Below, piece by piece: positions 205 to 45,062 of a DNA stretch of 64,000 nucleotides. The DNA is taken from NCBI RefSeq assembly GCF_041075285.1, contig NZ_CP163512.1, forward strand, positions 806,001 through 870,000. Direction: 5' to 3'. The translations under genes were made by a program, and so were the position numbers. The notes under the pieces were generated by a model, which made no database searches, was not told the DNA's origin, and was given only the letters and a program-made list of their open reading frames with translations. The stretch comes from Providencia rettgeri. Its GTDB lineage: Bacteria; Pseudomonadota; Gammaproteobacteria; Enterobacterales; Enterobacteriaceae. Every line of letters starts with the position of its first letter. The first letter of the stretch is position 1.

Positions 205-241
205 AATTTGGTGGAGCTGGCGGGAGTTGAACCCGAGTCCG
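205..241. repeat. Left attachment site of the prophage (partial tmRNA 3' end copy)
   Basis: Bases 205-235 are identical to 44695-44725, the 3' end of the tmRNA gene including the complement of the terminal CCA. After one mismatch five more bases match, then identity is lost. The rest of the tmRNA is absent here, so this is the displaced copy and the functional gene is at the other end. Confidence 0.9.
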
Positions 242-598: not shown

Positions 599-793
599 AT
601 GGACTGGGTTACTCACATAGTAAGTTTTATCGTTGGTTTAGGTGCTGGTTGGACATTGCGAATCGCTTTTATCTCTAGAAAAACATCTATAGAGCTTAAA
701 AGCAATGATGCTAACTATAATGTTAGCCAAACTAAAAATAATGTTACTAATGGTAATATTGTTGGACGTGACCAAAATAACTCCAGTCGTTGA
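599..793 (+). CDS. Small single-pass membrane protein, first gene of the ABC three-component-like operon
   Basis: This 64-residue protein has one predicted membrane segment (about residues 5-23) followed by a basic stretch (RISRK region) and a polar, Asn-rich tail. The tail, from about residue 46, reads NNVTNGNIVGRDQNN. The second gene product carries a near-identical motif (NRVDNGSIVAGDQHN). Such short Asn/Gly/Val repeats resemble the motifs of bacterial amyloid-signalling proteins, so the tail may let this protein recruit or be recruited by its neighbour at the membrane. The ATG is preceded by AAGGAC. I do not recognise a named family; a role as membrane-acting effector or anchor is inferred. 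Confidence 0.7.
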   Translation: MDWVTHIVSFIVGLGAGWTLRIAFISRKTSIELKSNDANYNVSQTKNNVTNGNIVGRDQNNSSR

Positions 794-804
794 GAGGTTA
801 GTCG

Positions 805-1386
805 GTGTTTACAACTCCTCGAGCACAGATACATACACAACAAACTGGGAATCGTGTTGATAATGGTAGCATTGTTGCAGGTGACCAGCATAACCATATC
901 TATGGTAACTCTAAGGTTAATAGAGAGTTACTTGAGCTCTACGAGCGCTTGAGAAATGATGATTTTGGTGAGCGTAGCGCTCAATTCAATGAAAAGCTTA
1001 ATCATTATTTCACTGCTCAAAATGAAACGGATGTAAGGGGGTTAGACGCTAAGCTTACTGATAGTAATAGAGAAGATTTGTTGTTTGCCGCAAAGATGTT
1101 TAAGCAGCAAGCAACTATGGCTATTATGAAAAAGCAAACATCCAAATCAGCTCAGAGAATATTCGTAATTCTTCTTGATAGAATATATTTTGATTTTCTA
1201 ATGAAAGTTAACCCATTAATTCATAATGACAGTGATCGTATTACTGTCGATTCAAAAATTACAGAAATAATTGAAACCCTATATGAAACTCTAGGGGAAA
1301 ATCCTCTAGAATTAACACCAACAGATTTGTTGGGTTTATTATTTTTTCTGGGGGGGAATTGTCATATAAGGTGGGATAAATGTTAA
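805..1386 (+). CDS. ABC three-component-like system protein with N-terminal NGSIV-DQ motif
   Basis: The protein has 193 residues and starts at GTG, 8 bases after GAGGT. Residues 15-32 carry the motif shared with the upstream membrane protein. The rest looks alpha-helical and ends in a hydrophobic stretch with Gly-Gly and Trp (LGGNCHIRW), similar to the conserved C-terminal region I associate with the first component of ABC-3C systems. I see no nuclease, protease or other catalytic motif, so the usual effector domain is missing or replaced by the short motif. Its stop overlaps the next start by 7 bases, indicating translational coupling. The family assignment is from memory and moderate. Confidence 0.6.
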   Translation: MFTTPRAQIHTQQTGNRVDNGSIVAGDQHNHIYGNSKVNRELLELYERLRNDDFGERSAQFNEKLNHYFTAQNETDVRGLDAKLTDSNREDLLFAAKMFKQQATMAIMKKQTSKSAQRIFVILLDRIYFDFLMKVNPLIHNDSDRITVDSKITEIIETLYETLGENPLELTPTDLLGLLFFLGGNCHIRWDKC

Positions 1387-1880
1387 TTTATCATCCTGCG
1401 TTTGACGCATACCATTGTCTTTTCCGAATGATTGCATTGATTGATCATCTAAATACTGCAGAAGTTGATAAAGTAAGAATACTTGATTTTTATATGATTT
1501 TTCCAGCTATGATAGCCAATATAAGAATGCCACCCACACAAAGTGGAGCGAAATCTTTGGCCAGAAAATATAAAAATGAGTATAGGGATCCTATTAACTC
1601 ACTTTCTACCTTTAGAGATATGCATCAAATACAAATGTCAGCTTTGAAATGTCTTGCTGCAACAGGTCTGATAGATTTATCTAAGTTAGAATATGGAGTT
1701 ATAACAAGAACTACTACAGAGATTCCTAATGATTTATTAATCACCATGCAAAGTTTTCTCAATGATAAGGCTGATATAAGCGATTTTATAATTAATGAAC
1801 TTTCTCAGTTTGATTTGACAGGTAAAGATGGGTTAAAGGACCGGACTCAATTAATGGAGTATAGATATGACTTTTCTTAG
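1380..1880 (+). CDS. ABC three-component-like middle component
   Basis: This is a 166-residue, mostly helical protein without catalytic motifs. Its position between the first component and a large ABC ATPase, its size and its N-terminal half (YHPAFDAYHCLFRMIALI and the following DFYMIFP) match the middle-component proteins of ABC-3C systems, which are thought to bridge effector and ATPase. It overlaps the gene before it by 7 bases and the ATPase after it by 14 bases. The assignment rests on context plus remembered family resemblance. Confidence 0.6.
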   Translation: MLIYHPAFDAYHCLFRMIALIDHLNTAEVDKVRILDFYMIFPAMIANIRMPPTQSGAKSLARKYKNEYRDPINSLSTFRDMHQIQMSALKCLAATGLIDLSKLEYGVITRTTTEIPNDLLITMQSFLNDKADISDFIINELSQFDLTGKDGLKDRTQLMEYRYDFS

Positions 1881-3822
1881 TCCAACATTTTGGGTGAGTG
1901 AAATTCGTGTTTTTCAACATGGTCACCAAGCATTTGGTTGTAAGTTTCACAAAGGTGTTAACGTAATAAGAGGTCGCAATAGCTCAGGAAAAACAACAAT
2001 AATGGATTTATTAGCTTACTCTTTGGGGGCTGAAAATCTCCCTTGGAAGCCTGAAGCTAAAATCTGTACTGAAACCCTCACTGAAGTTTATCTTAATGGC
2101 TTGCCTGTATGCTTAAAAAGAGAGTTAAGCCCGCCTGAAATTCAGAAACCTATTAGTTTTTATTCTGGAACTATTGAAGCAGCGCTTAAATCAGCTCCAA
2201 ATGAATGGATGCGTCATCCTTTTAAGCGCTCGGAGAAAGTTTTAAGTTTTTCGCAAGTTATATTTGATGCGTTAGATATGCCATTAGCACAAGGTGATGG
2301 AGCATCAATTTTAACTATGCATCAAATCTTAAGAGTACTTTATGCTGATCAGCCATCATTGCATAGCCCGATTTTTCGTGAGGATAGCTTTGATAAAGCA
2401 TTGACAAGAAAGACCGTTGGAGATTACTTATGCGGAATTTATGATGATAGTCTATATTCTTCACAGGTTAGGCTTCGACAAGTTGAGATAGACCTTAGCA
2501 AAAGTATCAGTGAATTAAAAAGTATTTTTAAAATACTTGGTCGCTCAGGTCAATCTGAAAATATTCACTTTATTAATGAACGTATTGAAGCGCTCAATAC
2601 AAAAAAAAGTGAATTACTGAAAAGCCTTGACGACATAAGATTAGAACGCACCGAAACTAATACGGATTTACCAGACGATAAGGCGAAGACTAGAGCTATT
2701 AGACAGTCTCTGAACAAAGCTAAATCTTTAGAACTGAAAAATCGAGATGAAATAGATAAACTTTCTTTCGTAATAGCTGATATTGAAATGTTTATTACTG
2801 AGCTTGAAGCTAGATTACAGAATCTTAATGAGTCAGCTAAAACTAGGGAATATTTTAATGACATACAATTTCAGTTTTGTCCTGGTTGCTTGAGTGAAAT
2901 TAAATCTGTCGAAAATACAAATTGTTGTAATTTATGTAAAGCCGAATTAATTGAAGGTGAAAATGCACCGCAGTTATTAAGAATGCGTAACGAAATCCAA
3001 GTGCAATTAAATGAGTCTAAATATATTTTGGATCATAAAAATGATGAGCTCAAAAAGCACAAAAAAGAATCACCACGATTAAGGAAAGATGTAAAAAGAC
3101 TCGAAGATGAGTATTCATCTATATCACAAAATTGGCAAACAGCATACGAGATTGAAGTTGAAAAAATATCAAGAGAGTTAGGAGCAGTGGAGGCAGCTAT
3201 AGATCAGGCTTATGAGCATCAGAAACTAAATACAGTTATTTTAGAATTAGAGAAAAGTAGAAGTGATCTCGAATCTGAAAAAGAAAGGTTAATAAGCTAT
3301 ATTGAATCCTTGGAACTAAAAGAAGATAGTTTAAAATTAGATGTGGCAAAATTAATTGAGTCTAATACTATTAGGCTTCTGAGGTTAGATTTGCCTTTAC
3401 AGGCTGAGTTTATTGATGCTAAACAAGTTAAGTTTAGTTTTGAAGATAATTCAGTCTCTGTTAATGGTTCTAAAAATTTCTCTGAGAGCTCTGCTGTTAT
3501 CTTACGTCACGTTTTTCACTTAGCTTTACTTAGTGCATCCATGAATAAAGAGTATATGCGCCTCCCTAGATTTATGATGCTTGATGGAATAGATGATGGT
3601 GGTATGGAGAAAGGTCGAAGCCATAATTTGCAAAAAATAATTGTTGAGGAAACAGCAAATTATCAGCATGATTTTCAATTAATCTTTGCAACATCAGAGA
3701 TAAATCCTGAATATGAAGACACTAATTTAACCGTTGGTCGATATTATAATCCAGAGGCCAGGTCATTAGAGTTAAGTTTAGTTGGCATTGAGCCAAGTTT
3801 ATTAGATACAGATTCAGCTTAA
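1867..3822 (+). CDS. SMC/Rad50-like ABC ATPase of an ABC three-component-like system
   Basis: The protein has 651 residues. Walker A is GRNSSGKT (about 36-43). A long coiled coil (about 195-480) is interrupted by a zinc-hook-like module with CPGC at 338-341 and CCNLC at 353-357. An ABC signature-like NFSESSA lies near 537 and Walker B (FMMLDGIDD) near 569-577. The order is that of Rad50/SMC-type ATPases, which sense or remodel nucleic acids. It is the last gene of the four-gene operon and is followed by a hairpin. I infer that it is the sensor or motor that triggers the upstream components, as proposed for ABC-3C conflict systems. Confidence 0.8.
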   Translation: MTFLSPTFWVSEIRVFQHGHQAFGCKFHKGVNVIRGRNSSGKTTIMDLLAYSLGAENLPWKPEAKICTETLTEVYLNGLPVCLKRELSPPEIQKPISFYSGTIEAALKSAPNEWMRHPFKRSEKVLSFSQVIFDALDMPLAQGDGASILTMHQILRVLYADQPSLHSPIFREDSFDKALTRKTVGDYLCGIYDDSLYSSQVRLRQVEIDLSKSISELKSIFKILGRSGQSENIHFINERIEALNTKKSELLKSLDDIRLERTETNTDLPDDKAKTRAIRQSLNKAKSLELKNRDEIDKLSFVIADIEMFITELEARLQNLNESAKTREYFNDIQFQFCPGCLSEIKSVENTNCCNLCKAELIEGENAPQLLRMRNEIQVQLNESKYILDHKNDELKKHKKESPRLRKDVKRLEDEYSSISQNWQTAYEIEVEKISRELGAVEAAIDQAYEHQKLNTVILELEKSRSDLESEKERLISYIESLELKEDSLKLDVAKLIESNTIRLLRLDLPLQAEFIDAKQVKFSFEDNSVSVNGSKNFSESSAVILRHVFHLALLSASMNKEYMRLPRFMMLDGIDDGGMEKGRSHNLQKIIVEETANYQHDFQLIFATSEINPEYEDTNLTVGRYYNPEARSLELSLVGIEPSLLDTDSA

Positions 3823-3888: not shown

Positions 3889-3973
3889 TTTATTTTATTT
3901 TATTTTATTTTATTTTATTTTATTTTATTTTATTTTATTTTATTTTATTTTATTTTATTTTATTTTATTTTAT
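3889..3973. repeat. Pentanucleotide microsatellite, about 17 copies of TTTTA
   Basis: An uninterrupted run of the 5-bp unit TTTTA occupies the space between the 3' ends of the ABC operon and integrase. On the minus strand the unit is TAAAA. It is outside any reading frame I can support, so length changes would not alter a protein, although they could affect DNA structure or nearby transcription. Confidence 0.95.
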
Positions 3974-4018
3974 CTTATAATTAATGTTATATAGGCTATG
4001 ATATATATTTTTCAGATA

Positions 4019-5200
4019 TCAGTTTGAAAATAAATCTGAAATTTTATTTACTACACTCCCATCATACTCCTTAAGATATCCCCCATAGTGCCTAAACAGC
4101 ATCTCAGGTCCTTTATGTCCCATTTGTCCTGCTAGCCAAAACAGATTAGCCCCTTGGCTGATATGCCTCGTAGCAAAGGTATGTCTTGTTTGATAAGGAT
4201 TACGATATCGAATACCCGCTTTTTTCAGCGTTGGCACCCATGCTTTCTTTCTGATTGCATCAGCACCTGCCCAGGCTCTATTTGTTTTTGGGTCTTCAAA
4301 AATCACACCATCTTTCAAGAACGTGAATTGTTTCTGCTCATTCAGGGCATTCATAGCTTCATTATTCAATTCAACTTTTCTGGTACCAGCTTTAGTTTTT
4401 GTTTTCTTAATAACGCCGACGACGCTGGCGGATTGCACGTGTGCAGTATTTTCTATGAAATCTATATCACTCCATCTCAATGCACATAATTCAGAGCTTC
4501 TTAACCCTGTATTAATGGCAAACTGAAATAAGTTTCTCCATTGCTCATATCTTGCCGCAGCGAGTAGGGCAGAGACTTCTTTAGGTGACAATGGGTCAAC
4601 AATATAACTGCTTTCATTGTTACTGTTATTTGATTGATATCTTGAAGCGGATACAAGGCTTACTGGGTTGATTGATACTATCCCATCGGTAATGGCTTCA
4701 TCTAGCGAGCTACGCAAAAACGAAAGCTGGTTACGGATGGTTTTTAATACTGTCGTTTGCTTTTGTATCCAGTTTTTTAGGATTGCGGGTGTTAGTGATG
4801 AAACATGTAATTGGTGCAAATCAGACAGGGCGCTTTTGCATTTTTTATAACCGCCAATCGTAGAGGGAGATAAATTTCGAGTTTCGCAAATAACTAAATA
4901 TTCCTCCAAATAATCAATCACTCTTTTTTCGCGATTATTAACGCCAAAAAGTATTAATTTTTTAGAGTTAGGAAAATATTTAGAGTAATTAAAAGTACCT
5001 TTTTCAATGTTATTTTGAATTTCAGCGAGTAGCCTTTCAGCGTATTTAATATTTTTATTATCGACGGTTAGTCTAGAGAGGGGCTCTCTACAGAGCGCCC
5101 CTCTATAAGTAAACGTGATAACAATAGTTTGGCTGGTTTTGTTGTTACGAACCGTTACCCCTCTTGGTAGTGCGTAGCCTGTTTGTTTTTTCGCGCCCAC
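4019..5200 (-). CDS. int: Tyrosine recombinase, phage integrase
   Basis: This 393-residue site-specific recombinase would insert and excise the prophage at ssrA. The catalytic residues visible are R234 (TGLRSSEL), R339 (QTRHTF), H362 (QMGHKG) and the nucleophile Y372 (RHYGGY). The N-terminal part (about 1-75) looks like an arm-binding domain and 90-175 like the core-binding SAM-like domain. Its start overlaps the excisionase gene by 46 bases. It is unusually far from the left attachment site, with the ABC operon lying between. Confidence 0.93.
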   Translation of the reverse strand: MGAKKQTGYALPRGVTVRNNKTSQTIVITFTYRGALCREPLSRLTVDNKNIKYAERLLAEIQNNIEKGTFNYSKYFPNSKKLILFGVNNREKRVIDYLEEYLVICETRNLSPSTIGGYKKCKSALSDLHQLHVSSLTPAILKNWIQKQTTVLKTIRNQLSFLRSSLDEAITDGIVSINPVSLVSASRYQSNNSNNESSYIVDPLSPKEVSALLAAARYEQWRNLFQFAINTGLRSSELCALRWSDIDFIENTAHVQSASVVGVIKKTKTKAGTRKVELNNEAMNALNEQKQFTFLKDGVIFEDPKTNRAWAGADAIRKKAWVPTLKKAGIRYRNPYQTRHTFATRHISQGANLFWLAGQMGHKGPEMLFRHYGGYLKEYDGSVVNKISDLFSN

Positions 5201-10802: not shown

Positions 10803-11258
10803 ATGAGTTTTGATATCGATATTGTCCGCTCCGAAATTGAGAGCTGGGCTACAGAACACGGTCAAGAGCACGTAGCGATTGAGATAAGCCGTGCGTATTT
10901 GCAGATCACGCGAGACAAATCACAGAGCCGCTTACATATGATTGAAGATGAACGAGGGCAAGCGGATTGGAAAGCGATTAATAACAACCGACAGCAGATA
11001 TTTCGCTGGTTACGAGGTGATTCGAACGCATCAATGAAGAAATTAGCAGAGCTGATGCCAGCGATAGAAATGGCGTTGCCGGCTTCGAGGTTAGCTCGAG
11101 TACGTGGCGATACTAAAAACTATTTAGCATCAGTGGCCATACAGCGATTTGCAGAAGCTATGACCGAAATTTTATTAGAGGGGCGTGACATGTCACACCG
11201 AATAAATAATGCCGTTAACGCACTCAATGCAATATCACGCCCGACCAGCGTGCACTAA
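10803..11258 (+). CDS. YdaT/CII-like regulatory protein
   Basis: The 151-residue protein resembles the YdaT family of Rac-type prophages (IEISRAYLQI..., a central INNNRQQIFRWLRG segment), which lies after ydaS and occupies the position of lambda cII. Overproduced YdaT disturbs cell division in E. coli. The ATG is preceded by GGAGACGCAG. Its role in the lysis-lysogeny decision is inferred from position. Confidence 0.7.
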   Translation: MSFDIDIVRSEIESWATEHGQEHVAIEISRAYLQITRDKSQSRLHMIEDERGQADWKAINNNRQQIFRWLRGDSNASMKKLAELMPAIEMALPASRLARVRGDTKNYLASVAIQRFAEAMTEILLEGRDMSHRINNAVNALNAISRPTSVH

Positions 11259-13793: not shown

Positions 13794-14534
13794 TTAAAAA
13801 GCATATTCTTCAATGAAATTATTATCAGTTACATATTTTTGAATTTCTGAATATAATTCTGTACAACTTAGTGCACTTATATTCAAACAGAAGCTCTCAA
13901 CGTCTTCTGAAAAAGAAATTCCCATTCTGGGATTGAATAGTTCTATTCTTTCAATTTTATAAGGAATATTTGAATAATGATTTAATGTTAAGTATATTAC
14001 TATCTGCCGTATATCAGTTAAGCTAAATTTTCTTTCTCCAGATTTTATTTCAGTCAGTGTATCGTTATGAATTAAATCACCATAAGATGGGTTGATAAAG
14101 CCACACCCATCAAAGCATGGATCTATGCATATTGATTTTGTTTCTTTTATGAAATGGTTATACATTAGTTTAAACAATCTATTTACTTGTGTTAATTCAT
14201 CATTGTTTAACGGTAATAAGAAATCTTTTCCATAGCTGAAATTTGATAAATACTCTAATGAATTTTCCATTATCAATTTAAATTCATTTCCTTTTAGAAA
14301 TGAAGGGGTTGATAATAAATCGAATTTTGTTTTTTGGTTAATTAACTCTCTTAGCATATAAAATGATAAAGTATTAATTAATGCTATATTTTGCTTTCTT
14401 GGTGTTAGAGGAAAAGGACTATACTCTGCTTTTAATAATCCTCCATTGATTAGTCTAACGTAGTTTTTGGCGTTAGGTAAAACTTCATTCCAGAATGAAG
14501 TGAATTTTTTAGAGAATGTAACCTCCGAAATCAT
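13794..14534 (-). CDS. PD-(D/E)XK nuclease-like protein partner of the reverse transcriptase
   Basis: The 246-residue protein shows the PD-(D/E)XK pattern: D153 in PSYGDLIHND, then E162-x-K164 in TLTEIKSG, followed by a helix with Q177 and Y181 (RQIVIYL), as in RecB/Cas4-type nucleases. This is my reading of the motif and not a database result. The start overlaps the RT stop (ATGA) and AGGGGA precedes it, so the two proteins are made together. A role in cutting DNA made or sensed by the RT, or in abortive infection, is inferred. Confidence 0.65.
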   Translation of the reverse strand: MISEVTFSKKFTSFWNEVLPNAKNYVRLINGGLLKAEYSPFPLTPRKQNIALINTLSFYMLRELINQKTKFDLLSTPSFLKGNEFKLIMENSLEYLSNFSYGKDFLLPLNNDELTQVNRLFKLMYNHFIKETKSICIDPCFDGCGFINPSYGDLIHNDTLTEIKSGERKFSLTDIRQIVIYLTLNHYSNIPYKIERIELFNPRMGISFSEDVESFCLNISALSCTELYSEIQKYVTDNNFIEEYAF

Positions 14535-16186
14535 AATGCATCCCCTAGATTTTTATCTGATTTACGTTTAGCTCCCCAAGACTTATATAGCTTATCTATA
14601 AAACTAAATTTTTCTTTATTATGTTCTTGCCAGTGTTTTCCCTCATCGCCAAGTAAATATGAAGAAACAATAAATAATCTTCTTTGCCACGAAGACATGG
14701 TTGGAAAATTTCTTCTTAATTCTGATAACCAGTAAAAAATATTCCACTTGGCCATTGCTTGAGTTATTAATAGATTGATTAATATACTATCACTGTTTGA
14801 TTTGTATAAATCTATTAATATTATTTGATTTTCTACAGTATTTTCTTTTGAAAGTAATTTTATTATAAAGGAGAGATTTAACTCAATCTTTAATATAAAT
14901 GAATCACTATTTATTAGCTCTATTATTTTTGCATTGATAATATTTTTAGTTTCCAAATCGAAGCGTTGCCAACTAGATATGGCTACTTGAATAATAGTAT
15001 TAAATATAGGATATAATTCATTTATGCTATTGAACATTACCTTAAATGCATCAGATAAAACTTTATCTGATGTCATACTTAAAGATTTAACAAGCTGCTT
15101 TGTAAATGGTTGGTTTATCTTTGATTTTTGAAGTTCGTCACTTAGCATTCCAAGTAAATCAAATTCTTTTAATGATTCTTTAATTTCCTCATACTGCTCA
15201 TTAGCGTTTTGCGAGTATGGGTCATATCTAATAGGTAAACTCATGAATTTAGCTTTAACTGGAGAACCGATATCGTCAGAACTACCAAGTAGTTTAGATT
15301 GAGTTAGAGATATAAATTCATCTTTAGATAAAATGTTTGTTTTATGCTTTTGTAAAGTTAACCCCTCATTTTCCATTAATTTTTTACTAAGTAAAGTTAA
15401 TATCGAATGAGCATCTTCCTTAGTGTTACAAAATATAATAAAGTCATCAACATATCTTTTGAATTTAATACTGTTAATTAATAGTAAATGATCTAAACTA
15501 TCTAATGCTAGCTCTGCTAATATTCTTGAGGCTGGACCTCCGACAGGTAATCCATAAGAATTTGTACCAGAGAATATTTGCATCATTTTTTTGATTTTTG
15601 AAGATATATTTTTATGTGGGTCTATTCTATCAAGCGCGTTTTCTAGTCTATGGTGATAAATTCTAGTATAGAAATCTGCTATATCACAAGTTACTATATA
15701 ATTAATATTGTCGTCTGATTTAGCAAGCTCTAAGCTATCTTCTTGAAATTTTCGCCACGTGATTTTTTTACAAAATAAAGAGCCTGAAGTAAAGTCAGGG
15801 GCGAATCTATATGAATAAACACAATTTTCGTCGACCCTATTTTCTTCAATCTCAGATGCTATGGATAAAATTATTCCTAAAAAATATGCATTCCAATATG
15901 GATCAATCTGAGTTGCCCACCTGTACCCATTGTACCCAACTGTAGAGCATGTGCTTATATTTATAGGTGGGCATTCATTGATATGTTCAGAAAAATTCTT
16001 ATGTGTTTCCTTTAAGGCTACTAAAATCTGTTCAAACAAATCATCAAACATTCTTGTTTCATATGGATAAGGAAAAATATCAGTATCACCAAAATTAATT
16101 ATATTTTTAATAGCTAAAGCAAACGCTGATTCTAAATCGTTTTTTTTATATTTAAATGTATTTTGGTCTATTGGTTTTCTAGCCAT
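14531..16186 (-). CDS. Defence-type reverse transcriptase (Abi/UG-like)
   Basis: The 551-residue protein has RT motifs in order: motif A with D168 (VTCDIADFY), motif B GLPVGGPASR at 212-221, motif C YVDD at 245-248 and motif D-like LQKHKTN near 278. The region after about 300 is a long helical domain with no recognised catalytic motif. This architecture fits the unknown-group/Abi reverse transcriptases that act in phage defence. No retron msr-msd structure or group II intron maturase domain was seen. It is AT-rich and opposite in direction to the phage genes around it, which points to acquired cargo. I cannot assign it to a named DRT type. Confidence 0.85.
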   Translation of the reverse strand: MARKPIDQNTFKYKKNDLESAFALAIKNIINFGDTDIFPYPYETRMFDDLFEQILVALKETHKNFSEHINECPPINISTCSTVGYNGYRWATQIDPYWNAYFLGIILSIASEIEENRVDENCVYSYRFAPDFTSGSLFCKKITWRKFQEDSLELAKSDDNINYIVTCDIADFYTRIYHHRLENALDRIDPHKNISSKIKKMMQIFSGTNSYGLPVGGPASRILAELALDSLDHLLLINSIKFKRYVDDFIIFCNTKEDAHSILTLLSKKLMENEGLTLQKHKTNILSKDEFISLTQSKLLGSSDDIGSPVKAKFMSLPIRYDPYSQNANEQYEEIKESLKEFDLLGMLSDELQKSKINQPFTKQLVKSLSMTSDKVLSDAFKVMFNSINELYPIFNTIIQVAISSWQRFDLETKNIINAKIIELINSDSFILKIELNLSFIIKLLSKENTVENQIILIDLYKSNSDSILINLLITQAMAKWNIFYWLSELRRNFPTMSSWQRRLFIVSSYLLGDEGKHWQEHNKEKFSFIDKLYKSWGAKRKSDKNLGDAL

Positions 16187-42458: not shown

Positions 42459-43448
42459 TTAGTCAATATCGTATATGGTTACTTTAGATTTTTTAAATAA
42501 ACTAAATGAGTTTATTATGTCATCTCTAATTAATTTTGTTTGTAGCAAAGTTATTTTTACATTAGGTATATCCATTACGTTAAGTTGGCATGTACTACCA
42601 AACCCAATAATATTTAACATGTTATTTTCGTTTGCTAATTTATAAATGTAATCTTCTGAAATGGTATCAATACAGCGTTCTTCCATGTGAAAAGCGTTTC
42701 TTGACAACTCTCTAGGATGCCTTAGGTAAATAATATTATCATATTTACTATTTATATTATTTATTTTCGTTAATAAAGATTCTAAATTTTCAGCATTTTT
42801 AGTGCGCAGGATATCTTTAAATCTTGAGCCTACAAAAATATTGACTATTTTATTGTTTTTGGTTTTTTTTGTAGTCTCAATATGTTCACTTTCTTTACGA
42901 AATAGTTCAAGCTTGACTACATTTGATTTTACATTATATTTCTTATTTTCATTTAAAATAGTGTAATGTAATATTGTGCTATCAACAATTTTTTGCGTAT
43001 TATAGATTTTTTTGAAGAAAAGTCGTGACAGTTTATATCTTAGCTTGCTCCTCTCCTTCATACGATTATCAATTTCTTGTATGCTTTCCAATGAGTTGAG
43101 ATTCAAAATCCCATCATCAAACGTTTCTATTGAGATGTTAGCCCCTAAGAGACTCACTATATAATGAAGAGGCAATTCACCTGCATTGGCTAGGTACACC
43201 GTAACAGGGTCACTAACTGATTTTTTCATATAGTTATTAATTACTATCAAATTCACTATATCGTAGTCCATTCTAGCGATTAAGTGAGAATCAAAATTAT
43301 GTTCTAATTCTTTTTTAACTCCCCTCATAATATTTTTATTTGTTTTTAGGTAAATTGCGTGACAAGTACCATCTGTCAATTGTTTTTTTATTGTTGTCGC
43401 AATTCTAAGCTGAAGTGGAGAGCAGATTAAAAATATATGTGATGACAT
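42459..43448 (-). CDS. Glycosyltransferase family 52-like protein (possible sialyltransferase)
   Basis: The 329-residue protein shows features of GT52 enzymes, which include lipooligosaccharide alpha-2,3-sialyltransferases: ICSPLQLRIA at the N-terminus, IETFDDGILNL near 125 and YLRHPRE near 248. No assembly tail-chaperone motif is present. It is AT-rich, opposite to the tail genes and next to the attachment site, a typical lysogenic-conversion position. The sugar donor and acceptor cannot be read from the sequence. Confidence 0.7.
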   Translation of the reverse strand: MSSHIFLICSPLQLRIATTIKKQLTDGTCHAIYLKTNKNIMRGVKKELEHNFDSHLIARMDYDIVNLIVINNYMKKSVSDPVTVYLANAGELPLHYIVSLLGANISIETFDDGILNLNSLESIQEIDNRMKERSKLRYKLSRLFFKKIYNTQKIVDSTILHYTILNENKKYNVKSNVVKLELFRKESEHIETTKKTKNNKIVNIFVGSRFKDILRTKNAENLESLLTKINNINSKYDNIIYLRHPRELSRNAFHMEERCIDTISEDYIYKLANENNMLNIIGFGSTCQLNVMDIPNVKITLLQTKLIRDDIINSFSLFKKSKVTIYDID

Positions 43449-43675
43449 TACTATTTTCCATACTTTTATTTATAGCTTAATTATTTCTTAAGTATAGCTC
43501 TTAACTAAGTAAATAGCACTAATTTATACGTGGTTTTTCTGCTGATCTTATCCGTATAGCATATCGAATTTTAACTATTTCACTTGGTTACTATTTTTGC
43601 TCAAGTGTGATTTAATGTGAGAGACTAGTTATGATATAGTTGGTTATACTTAATCAAATAAGAAGTAATTACACA

Positions 43676-44479
43676 ATGGAAAACATGGACACTTCAATAG
43701 AGTATGTTTTTAGATGGAAAAAAGCACATGAAGACTATCTGATAGAAAATAAAATTTTTTTGAAACAAGGTGGTCAATCTAAAAAAGTGGATGGTGTTTA
43801 TTCCAGACGAAATTTTTTTCTTTTCAACCGTGGGTAAAAGATTAGGATTATTGGTGATATTTTTGTTGAAGAATATTCAATGATGCCATTTCGTAGCTTT
43901 TGTTCTGTTGGTGCCTTTTCTGAACCAACCTGCCGCTTTCCAAATGGTACTGTCATAGGTCGCTATTGTAGCATAGCGAGTCGAGTGAAAGTGATGGGAG
44001 GTCATCACCCATACCATCGTTTTACGATAAGCACCTTAACATATAAAAAAGATTATGAAGTTATAGCGGGTAAGATGGGTGGAGAGTGGAAAGCTAATCC
44101 TTATGATACGAATCTTGGTTCCCCAGTAATTGGAAATGATGTTTGGATCGCGGACGATGTGGTGATAAAAGGCAATATTAAAATTGGTGATGGTGCGGTT
44201 ATAGCGGCAAACTCAGTAGTAACTAAGGATGTTCCTCCGTATGCTATCGTTGCTGGAATCCCTGCAAAGGTAATCAAATATCGATTTACAGATGATGTTA
44301 TCGCTGAGTTATTGAAGATTAAATGGTGGGATTATAAATTTACGGATCTACCTGACAATCAATACTGTGATGATATCGGTTATTTTGTTGATAATCTCTC
44401 GCTAAGTATTAAGCGAGGGGACATCGAGCCAACTATTTATAAAAAATTCAACATAGGGAAAGAGTTGAGTAATCTTTGA
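43676..44479 (+). pseudogene. CatB-related O-acetyltransferase interrupted by an in-frame stop
   Basis: A left-handed beta-helix acetyltransferase frame starts at ATG 43676, meets TAA at 43835-43837, and continues in the same frame (KIRIIGDIFVEEYSMMPFRSF) to 44479. The downstream part shows hexapeptide repeats (VIGRYCSIASRVKVMGG, VIGNDVWIADDVVIKGNIKIGDGAVIAANSVVTKDVPPYAIVAGIPAKVIK) with the usual catalytic H in GGHHPYHR. Restart at ATG 43880 could give a truncated protein. It may be a recent nonsense mutation; sequencing error is also possible. It was probably an antigen or LPS O-acetylation gene. Confidence 0.75.
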
Positions 44480-44694: not shown

Positions 44695-44731
44695 AATTTG
44701 GTGGAGCTGGCGGGAGTTGAACCCGCGTCCG
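44695..44731. repeat. Right attachment site at the tmRNA 3' end
   Basis: The 31 bases 44695-44725 equal 205-235. Here the copy is continuous with the complete tmRNA gene, so integration leaves tmRNA intact. Confidence 0.9.
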
Positions 44732-45062
44732 AAATTTCTACATCCTCGGTACTACATGCTTAGTCTAGTCTTTAATTTCATTTGCCAACTGCGGATAGAC
44801 ACGCCATCAACAAACTATCCTGATTAAATTTAACGCTGCAACCCCAGGCAAGGCATTCACGCGATCTCTTTTGGGTTTGACCTCTCTTGATCCCCGTCCT
44901 AAGAGCGGAGGCTAGGGAGAGAGGGCTCTAAGCAGGTTATTAAGCTGCTAAAGCGTAGTTTTCGTCGTTTGCGACTATTTTTTTGCGGCTTTTTACGAGG
45001 CCAACCGCCCCTCGGCATGCACCTTGGGTTTCGCAAATCCCGTCGAATCCAGAATCAGCCCC
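44699..45062 (-). ncRNA. ssrA: tmRNA
   Basis: The tmRNA rescues stalled ribosomes. Its 5' end GGGGCTGATTCTGGATTCGAC is at 45062 (only the first bases quoted) and the 3' end CCAGCTCCACCA at 44699. The tag reading frame at 44937-44972 encodes ANDENYALAA followed by two TAA codons, with the resume Ala codon GCA. The length of 364 bases is normal. It lies next to smpB, its protein partner. Confidence 0.97.

Follow-up and report, generated by a model that had tools for sequence, protein, structure and literature searches.

A matched, covarying motif links a membrane miniprotein to the CTD9 protein of a probable ABC-3C/Lamassu-like anti-virus operon in a Providencia rettgeri prophage

Among the systems described so far, those closest to the locus reported here are the ABC three-component (ABC-3C) systems and Lamassu, whose composition is given as the LmuA-LmuC-LmuB type (PMC10586767). 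In Lamassu type II (DdmABC), as in ABC-3C, an SMC/Rad50-like ATPase is combined with a small middle component and a subunit bearing a C-terminal domain (CTD). Lamassu is described as sensing DNA ends or hairpins (PMC12904381), and its activation as liberating LmuA, which then forms a homo-tetramer (PMC12409362 addendum). The subject of this study is a four-gene operon on the + strand, at positions 599-3822 of a 64,000-nucleotide stretch of the Providencia rettgeri contig NZ_CP163512.1 (positions 806,001 to 870,000; the whole stretch is called the window below). It shares these three components; however, unlike in Lamassu and ABC-3C, its CTD protein carries no fused enzyme, and the candidate effector is a separate transmembrane (TM) miniprotein, linked to the CTD protein by a shared motif. 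The N-terminal enzyme that canonical Lamassu carries on LmuA, missing here, was found in two relatives, L029 and L062, in the latter with a score under the Pfam cut-off. The four genes probably form an anti-virus system, and their sequences make it likely, in our judgement, that the operon is a variant of ABC-3C/Lamassu whose effector acts in trans.

The split layout has parallels in three other kinds of system. In the fungal NWD2/HET-S pair, a receptor has the motif at its N-terminus, and an effector that acts on membranes and is encoded in the same gene cluster has it at its C-terminus (PMC12881547), as in the present operon; in contrast, the receptor here is an SMC-like ATPase complex rather than a NOD-like receptor (NLR), the effector has a TM helix rather than a HeLo domain, no protein family is shared, and the amyloid is putative. 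Bacterial NLR/Bell pairs with bacterial amyloid signalling sequences (BASS), as described in PMC7889193, likewise consist of adjacent genes with the motif at the sensor N-terminus and the effector C-terminus, and their effector has a hydrophobic helix. This comparison is one of descriptions, and those pairs were identified next to NLRs, for the most part in filamentous actinobacteria and cyanobacteria, whereas the present module is found in Proteobacteria and contains no NLR. Finally, the nuclease-protease pairs of AVAST, Hachiman, Lamassu and DRT also split the effector between a domain fused to the sensor side and an upstream gene (PMC12799240); in those pairs, proteolysis is what activates the separate effector, whereas here activation would go via the shared motif.

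The gene coordinates of a preliminary description of this DNA proved correct, and the features of the operon are as follows.

599..793, + strand: gene 1, miniprotein of 64 residues, with a predicted N-terminal TM helix, a basic stretch and a C-terminal motif (PHROG 17975)
620..676, + strand: predicted TM segment of the miniprotein, about residues 8-26 (hydropathy and inspection by eye)
737..781, + strand: effector-side motif NNVTNGNIVGRDQNN, miniprotein residues 47-61 (local alignment)
805..1386, + strand: gene 2, CTD9 protein of 193 residues, GTG start (Pfam PF20285, E 2.3e-28, residues 79-190)
850..894, + strand: sensor-side motif NRVDNGSIVAGDQHN, CTD9 protein residues 16-30 (local alignment), in a stretch predicted to lack secondary structure
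1039..1374, + strand: CTD9 helical domain, residues 79-190 (Pfam)
1380..1880, + strand: gene 3, MC5 middle component of 166 residues, LmuC-like with a winged-helix part (Pfam MC5, E 9.2e-54)
1867..3822, + strand: gene 4, SMC/Rad50-like ABC ATPase of 651 residues, LmuB-like (PADLOC LmuB, E 1.8e-42)
2878..2937, + strand: four-cysteine element in the middle of the ATPase, C338, C341, C354 and C357 (CPxC...CxLC), invariant in 24 aligned ATPases

The preliminary description had noticed a short motif common to the miniprotein and the N-terminus of the second protein, and the alignments bear this out. Aligned locally over their full lengths, the 64- and 193-residue proteins match best between residues 38-61 and residues 7-30, respectively, at a score of 58, which 0 of 10,000 shuffles reached. 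A weak match to the miniprotein family PHROG 17975 (E 0.0098) is likewise found in the CTD9 protein, at residues 12-29. When the 4.35-Mb genome was searched with a profile built from 34 miniproteins, that of the window among them, the miniprotein came first (E 5e-22), the N-terminus of the CTD9 protein second (window 832-894, E 0.015) and a site elsewhere in the genome third (E 0.024); because the third match is nearly as strong, the second is weak when taken alone.

Related loci were collected from several sources. CTD9 relatives from GTDB contigs gave 28 loci; in IMG/VR, CTD9 queries gave 20 and 11 loci and an MC5 query 35, of which 20 and 4 lay on contigs already found by the CTD9 queries. 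The whole-genome search gave 2 of 369 for the class and 6 of 398 for the phylum (own genome included in both; 5 of the 6 over the family cut-off), and 3 of 385, two of them already known, for the class of G395. Removed before counting were L075-L094 (contigs of L030-L049), L097, L100, L102 and L107 (contigs of L070, L069, L067 and L068), the contig-end cuts L096 and L105, and L050-L054 and L056 (short versions of L057-L062). The candidate L055/L063 from G462 was rejected as a family member, since its match fell under the cut-off and lies in an apparent signalling-kinase open reading frame (ORF); L063 has no match to the module profiles. This left 77 loci, window included, among which near-identical ones remain, so that representatives (59, 44, 27 or 15) were used in the tests. 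The miniprotein was picked by a rule blind to the motif, as the longest ORF of at least 45 residues with a hydropathy of at least 1.2 that ends near the CTD9 start; the picks for L006 (missed) and for L012, L015 and L017 (wrong ORF) were corrected by eye with the motif visible, and these 4 of the 70 test pairs are not blind.

The small gene had been expected to accompany the other three, and it does: the motif and the small ORF occur together in 71 of the 75 assessable loci, and the other four have neither the gene nor the motif. Two further loci are cut by contig ends. A lack of such co-occurrence and loss of the motif in homologues had both been named in advance as outcomes that would count against the idea; neither was borne out, and the two proteins were nowhere discordant (71 loci with both, 4 with neither, 0 with one). 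In the 71 loci, the motif lies at the C-terminus of the small ORF and near the N-terminus of the CTD9 protein, and from the small-ORF stop to the first CTD9 start codon the median distance is 4.5 bases (44 representatives). One of the 71, L026, was scored from a 25-residue remnant at a contig start, in which the TM part is not visible, and is outside the 70 test pairs.

The motif varies between clades, yet matches within loci, as the following pairs (miniprotein / CTD9 protein) illustrate.

L098: QKRINAGGDVAGGNIDKS / QKDIQAGGDVAGGNIDKS
L066: LKNVSINGDYTGRDK / LKNVFVNGDYVGRDK
L073: NEINNNEADGDLNIG / NEINGNSPGGDLNIG
L025: QSGNTVRGHMSGRDVNV / QNGNTVHGHMGGRDVNV

For 27 representatives with less than 50% MC5 identity, the mean cognate score was 59.2 vs. 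32.5 for non-cognate pairs (z 13.4; 0 of 20,000 permutations); in L008, where MC5 is read in two ORFs, the best-scoring piece was used for the distances. The cognate excess was also found with 59, 44 and 15 representatives (z 17.9, 16.7 and 9.4, respectively; 0 of 20,000 permutations each). Among the 27, the cognate partner ranked first in 16 and within the top three in 22. When the complete proteins of the 70 pairs were aligned, the highest-scoring alignment always began past the 40% mark of the miniprotein and no later than residue 60 of the CTD9 ORF; the score was reached by none of 200 shuffles per pair in 64 of the 70, and by one to three shuffles in the remaining 6. Reversed CTD9 sequences, in which composition is kept, gave z values of only 1.2-2.3.

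The matched motifs might instead reflect coincidence or shared ancestry, namely an old duplication with no present interaction. The genes are adjacent in all 71 motif-bearing loci, making an ancient duplication a plausible origin; however, drift after such a duplication predicts no cognate excess, in contrast to the z values of 9.4-17.9 found here. Nor are codons shared in excess overall: over 44 pairs, 515 residues are identical, and 232 of them use the same codon vs. 217.8 expected, and with a count so near expectation, the matching is not in general due to recent gene conversion. We regard present-day indifference between the two motifs as very improbable.

The four loci with neither the gene nor the motif are of two kinds. 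In L029 (Azospirillum tabaci) and L062 (G1077), an alpha/beta-hydrolase-like part is fused N-terminally to CTD9 (Pfam DUF676, 27.7 bits in L029 against a cut-off of 20.3, and 17.3 bits, under the cut-off, in L062), and both motif and miniprotein are absent. In L058 and L071, a bare 160-residue CTD9 without the motif is encoded; the picking rule found no small hydrophobic ORF (in L071, within the only 452 bases available upstream), and a multi-TM protein, judged similar and TM-bearing by eye, is encoded directly 3' of the ATPase (as translated, L058 6791-7504, 237 residues; L071 3379-4095, 238 residues). For the L058 protein, no Pfam match was over the cut-off, the best being PDZ_3 at E 0.099. 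Because the fused-hydrolase and multi-TM loci are without the pair, the motif-miniprotein pair appears, from these sequences, to occur where another effector is missing, and the miniprotein fits the role of effector since the fused hydrolases occupy the same slot. In flanks of up to 2.5 kb, limited by the contig ends, no gene is common to more than 4 of 48 loci (the 44 representatives and the four exceptions); L099, which has no ATPase in its contig, was outside the downstream count, and further contigs stop short of this distance. Thus, no other candidate effector was seen, and the module is one of four genes. The shared flanking genes whose function could be guessed at, with the phage gene names taken from reading the sequences, are integrases and P2-like phage genes.

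These exceptions bear on whether the miniprotein might be an anchor, tethering the sensor complex to the inner membrane, e.g., at DNA entry sites, while the ATPase complex or another partner does the damage. A single TM helix with a cytoplasmic tail would suit a tether, and matched motifs fit tethering equally well. However, the other three proteins are without a recognised enzymatic effector domain (searches of the Pfam, NCBIfam, PADLOC and PHROG type), no further gene is common to more than 4 of the 48 flanks, and the miniprotein is absent at the two loci where a hydrolase is fused to CTD9, as expected of something that substitutes for an effector. The anchor is therefore unlikely, in our estimate.

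The miniprotein itself has no Pfam match and no NCBIfam match over the cut-off, and PHROG 17975 is listed as of unknown function. A protein search with the single miniprotein matched only itself, because the query is too short to find relatives; the profile of 34 miniproteins matched 238 proteins, and the best 120 of the 238 are all without a Pfam domain. The hydrophobic segment is present in 69 of the 70 complete small ORFs, the exception being L017 (hydropathy 0.66, under the threshold), which is perhaps frameshifted and was used as read. Across 44 representative small ORFs, lysine and arginine make up 24 of 473 residues before the segment and 147 of 660 after it (densities 0.051 vs. 0.223), with a higher density after it in 41 of the 44, a lower one in 1 and equal densities in 2. 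Because the positive charges follow the TM segment, the C-terminus, and with it the motif, is predicted to be cytoplasmic by the positive-inside rule. The small-ORF family is under purifying selection, with a pooled pN/pS of 0.24 over 135 non-independent pairs. The miniproteins of L057, L059, L070, L072 and L073 are longer (97-124 residues), with a stronger hydrophobic segment or a second one.

For the other three genes, the resemblance to ABC-3C that had been proposed is supported by several searches. Three features of the ABC-3C/Lamassu superfamily are present, namely a LmuB-like ATPase, a middle component and a subunit with an ABC-3C C-terminal docking domain. The CTD9 protein has the gene position of the ABC-3C effector subunit and of Lamassu LmuA, and a CTD that is of ABC-3C type by Pfam and putatively equivalent to that of LmuA; no Pfam domain over the cut-off lies ahead of its residue 79, and in its AlphaFold2 model residues 1-39 form neither helix nor strand, with block means of the predicted local distance difference test (pLDDT) of 50-62. 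The predicted MC5 model resembles LmuC, with no Foldseek match at E<=0.001. For the ATPase, the PADLOC LmuB models are the best match (SMC_N, E 5e-5, falls under that model's cut-off), and its family profile finds a Lamassu ATPase, 9hqu_A, as the best match in the PDB (E 4e-9). Only this profile did so; the single ATPase and MC5 sequences and the CTD9 and MC5 profiles gave no relevant PDB match. The ATPase had also been credited with a zinc hook. It is indeed Rad50-like; however, the standard Rad50 zinc hook is a single CxxC, whereas the element here has the four cysteines listed above.

Taken together, these observations suggest a relay. By analogy with Lamassu, the LmuB-like ATPase and the MC5/LmuC-like component would hold the CTD9 protein and sense abnormal phage or plasmid DNA, such as ends or hairpins. 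The CTD9 protein would then be released or oligomerised, again as in Lamassu, clustering its N-terminal motifs, which are predicted to be unstructured in the monomer. As the co-occurrence and covariation suggest, the clustered motif would bind, like with like, to the matching motif in the miniprotein's cytoplasmic tail. The gathered miniproteins would finally disturb the inner membrane and bring the cell to a halt, a step suggested by their replacement by fused hydrolases. The pairing step has evolutionary support; sensing, release, assembly and damage we infer.

An opposite sign of regulation is also conceivable, in which the miniprotein is a constitutive membrane toxin that the CTD9 motif locks and that is freed upon sensing. 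The layout, with a small TM protein next to a partner that carries the motif, does resemble that of toxin-antitoxin pairs, and the matched motif could act as the lock. However, the activation of Lamassu and of fused effectors by oligomerisation, as described in PMC12409362 and PMC12799240, favours clustering, and sequestration of this kind seems quite improbable to us.

For the contact between the motifs, a stacked cross-beta (amyloid-type) assembly is favoured by analogy, though unproven. The clustered CTD9 motifs would serve as the seed for the miniprotein motif, in the way that NWD2 is described to seed HET-S (PMC12881547). Whether the operon is in full an amyloid-type, NLR-free circuit, in which an SMC/Rad50-like DNA sensor clusters a motif that acts as template for its counterpart in a membrane miniprotein, is in our view evenly balanced. 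The chief competitor, which overlaps with this proposal and leaves the logic of the relay unchanged, is a non-amyloid fold, e.g., a short beta-roll, strand exchange or a metal-bound Asp/Asn turn. The motif is a short one with much G, D and N and a modest share of hydrophobic residues, it is predicted to be unstructured alone, and no amyloid-motif family was among the Pfam matches listed for it. On the other side stand the layout, which is that of the NWD2/HET-S and BASS pairs (PMC12881547, PMC7889193), and the two similar motif copies of the L067 miniprotein, reminiscent of the two pseudo-repeats of HET-S; a weaker repeat is found in L025. We hold a non-amyloid fold to be possible, though the less likely choice.

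Several points weigh against the proposed relay as a whole and should be read together. The motif is polar. Of the described Pfam amyloid-motif families (RHIM, HET-S, Ses_B and NACHT_sigma), none was listed for either protein at E<=1, in a search in which short motifs are hard to detect and most matches above E 0.1 were dropped. Foldseek with the CTD9 model gave no match at E<=0.001, and LmuA was absent among the matches listed. Covariation is imperfect, with the cognate partner ranking 10th in L008, 8th in L068, 7th in L015 and 6th in L021 among the 27 representatives, and composition contributes a little, because a small excess (z up to 2.3) persists after sequence reversal. In the window's own pair, 10 of the 12 shared residues use the same codon vs. 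6.4 expected, and local gene conversion may have acted there. The replacement argument comes from four loci of two kinds, one of which (L071) was judged on 452 bases to the contig end.

The operon is carried by a prophage of about 44.5 kb inserted in ssrA, the tmRNA gene, where it is flanked by one attachment site and the integrase. The features that mark the prophage are as follows.

205..235, + strand: 31-bp direct repeat, attachment site and copy of the ssrA 3' end, identical to 44695-44725
4019..5200, - strand: prophage tyrosine integrase (Pfam Phage_integrase, E 7.6e-20)
44699-45062, - strand: tmRNA gene ssrA, with the second repeat copy at 44695-44725

A DRT8 pair, i.e., a reverse transcriptase and a PD-(D/E)XK nuclease, is encoded on the same prophage (13794-16186, - strand; PADLOC E 9e-161 and 7e-67). 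The pentanucleotide TTTAT is repeated 18 times between the genes of the ATPase and the integrase (window 3889-3978), forming a possible slippage site. A YdaT-like protein is encoded near the phage repressor gene (window 10803-11258, + strand), and at the other prophage edge (window 42459-44479) a family 52 glycosyltransferase (- strand) and a hexapeptide-repeat transferase (+ strand) are perhaps surface-modifying cargo. Among the 77 loci, a tyrosine recombinase was found in the fetched stretch of 11 (tblastn with five queries from these loci). A tblastn search with the CTD9 protein in annotated phage and plasmid collections and a megablast search with the operon in E. coli genomes found nothing, and the alpha-type CTD9 alignment had no relative in viral contigs.

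No literature joining ABC-3C with amyloid was found, the term being rare in the literature searched and the small TM gene perhaps having been mentioned before, and none joining Lamassu with amyloid; seven papers do treat amyloid signalling together with anti-phage defence. ABC-3C and Lamassu are already known; what is new, as far as the literature was searched, is the motif that matches and covaries between the two proteins and that gives way to fused hydrolases in two loci. Whether fungal or bacterial signalling amyloids exist in NLR-independent pathways is a question raised in a 2021 review of amyloid signalling (PMC7889193). The module is a concrete candidate for such an amyloid in Proteobacteria, and its many natural motif pairs make the question testable. 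It also suggests a route by which a Lamassu-type sensor could give up its fused enzyme and use a trans-acting membrane effector instead, and it provides a hypothesis of function for PHROG 17975 and the short CTD9 proteins. If the proposal is true, homotypic polymerisation would connect DNA sensing with membrane killing in Proteobacteria and their prophages, the circuit would be widespread, and clade-specific motif pairs would keep co-resident systems apart.

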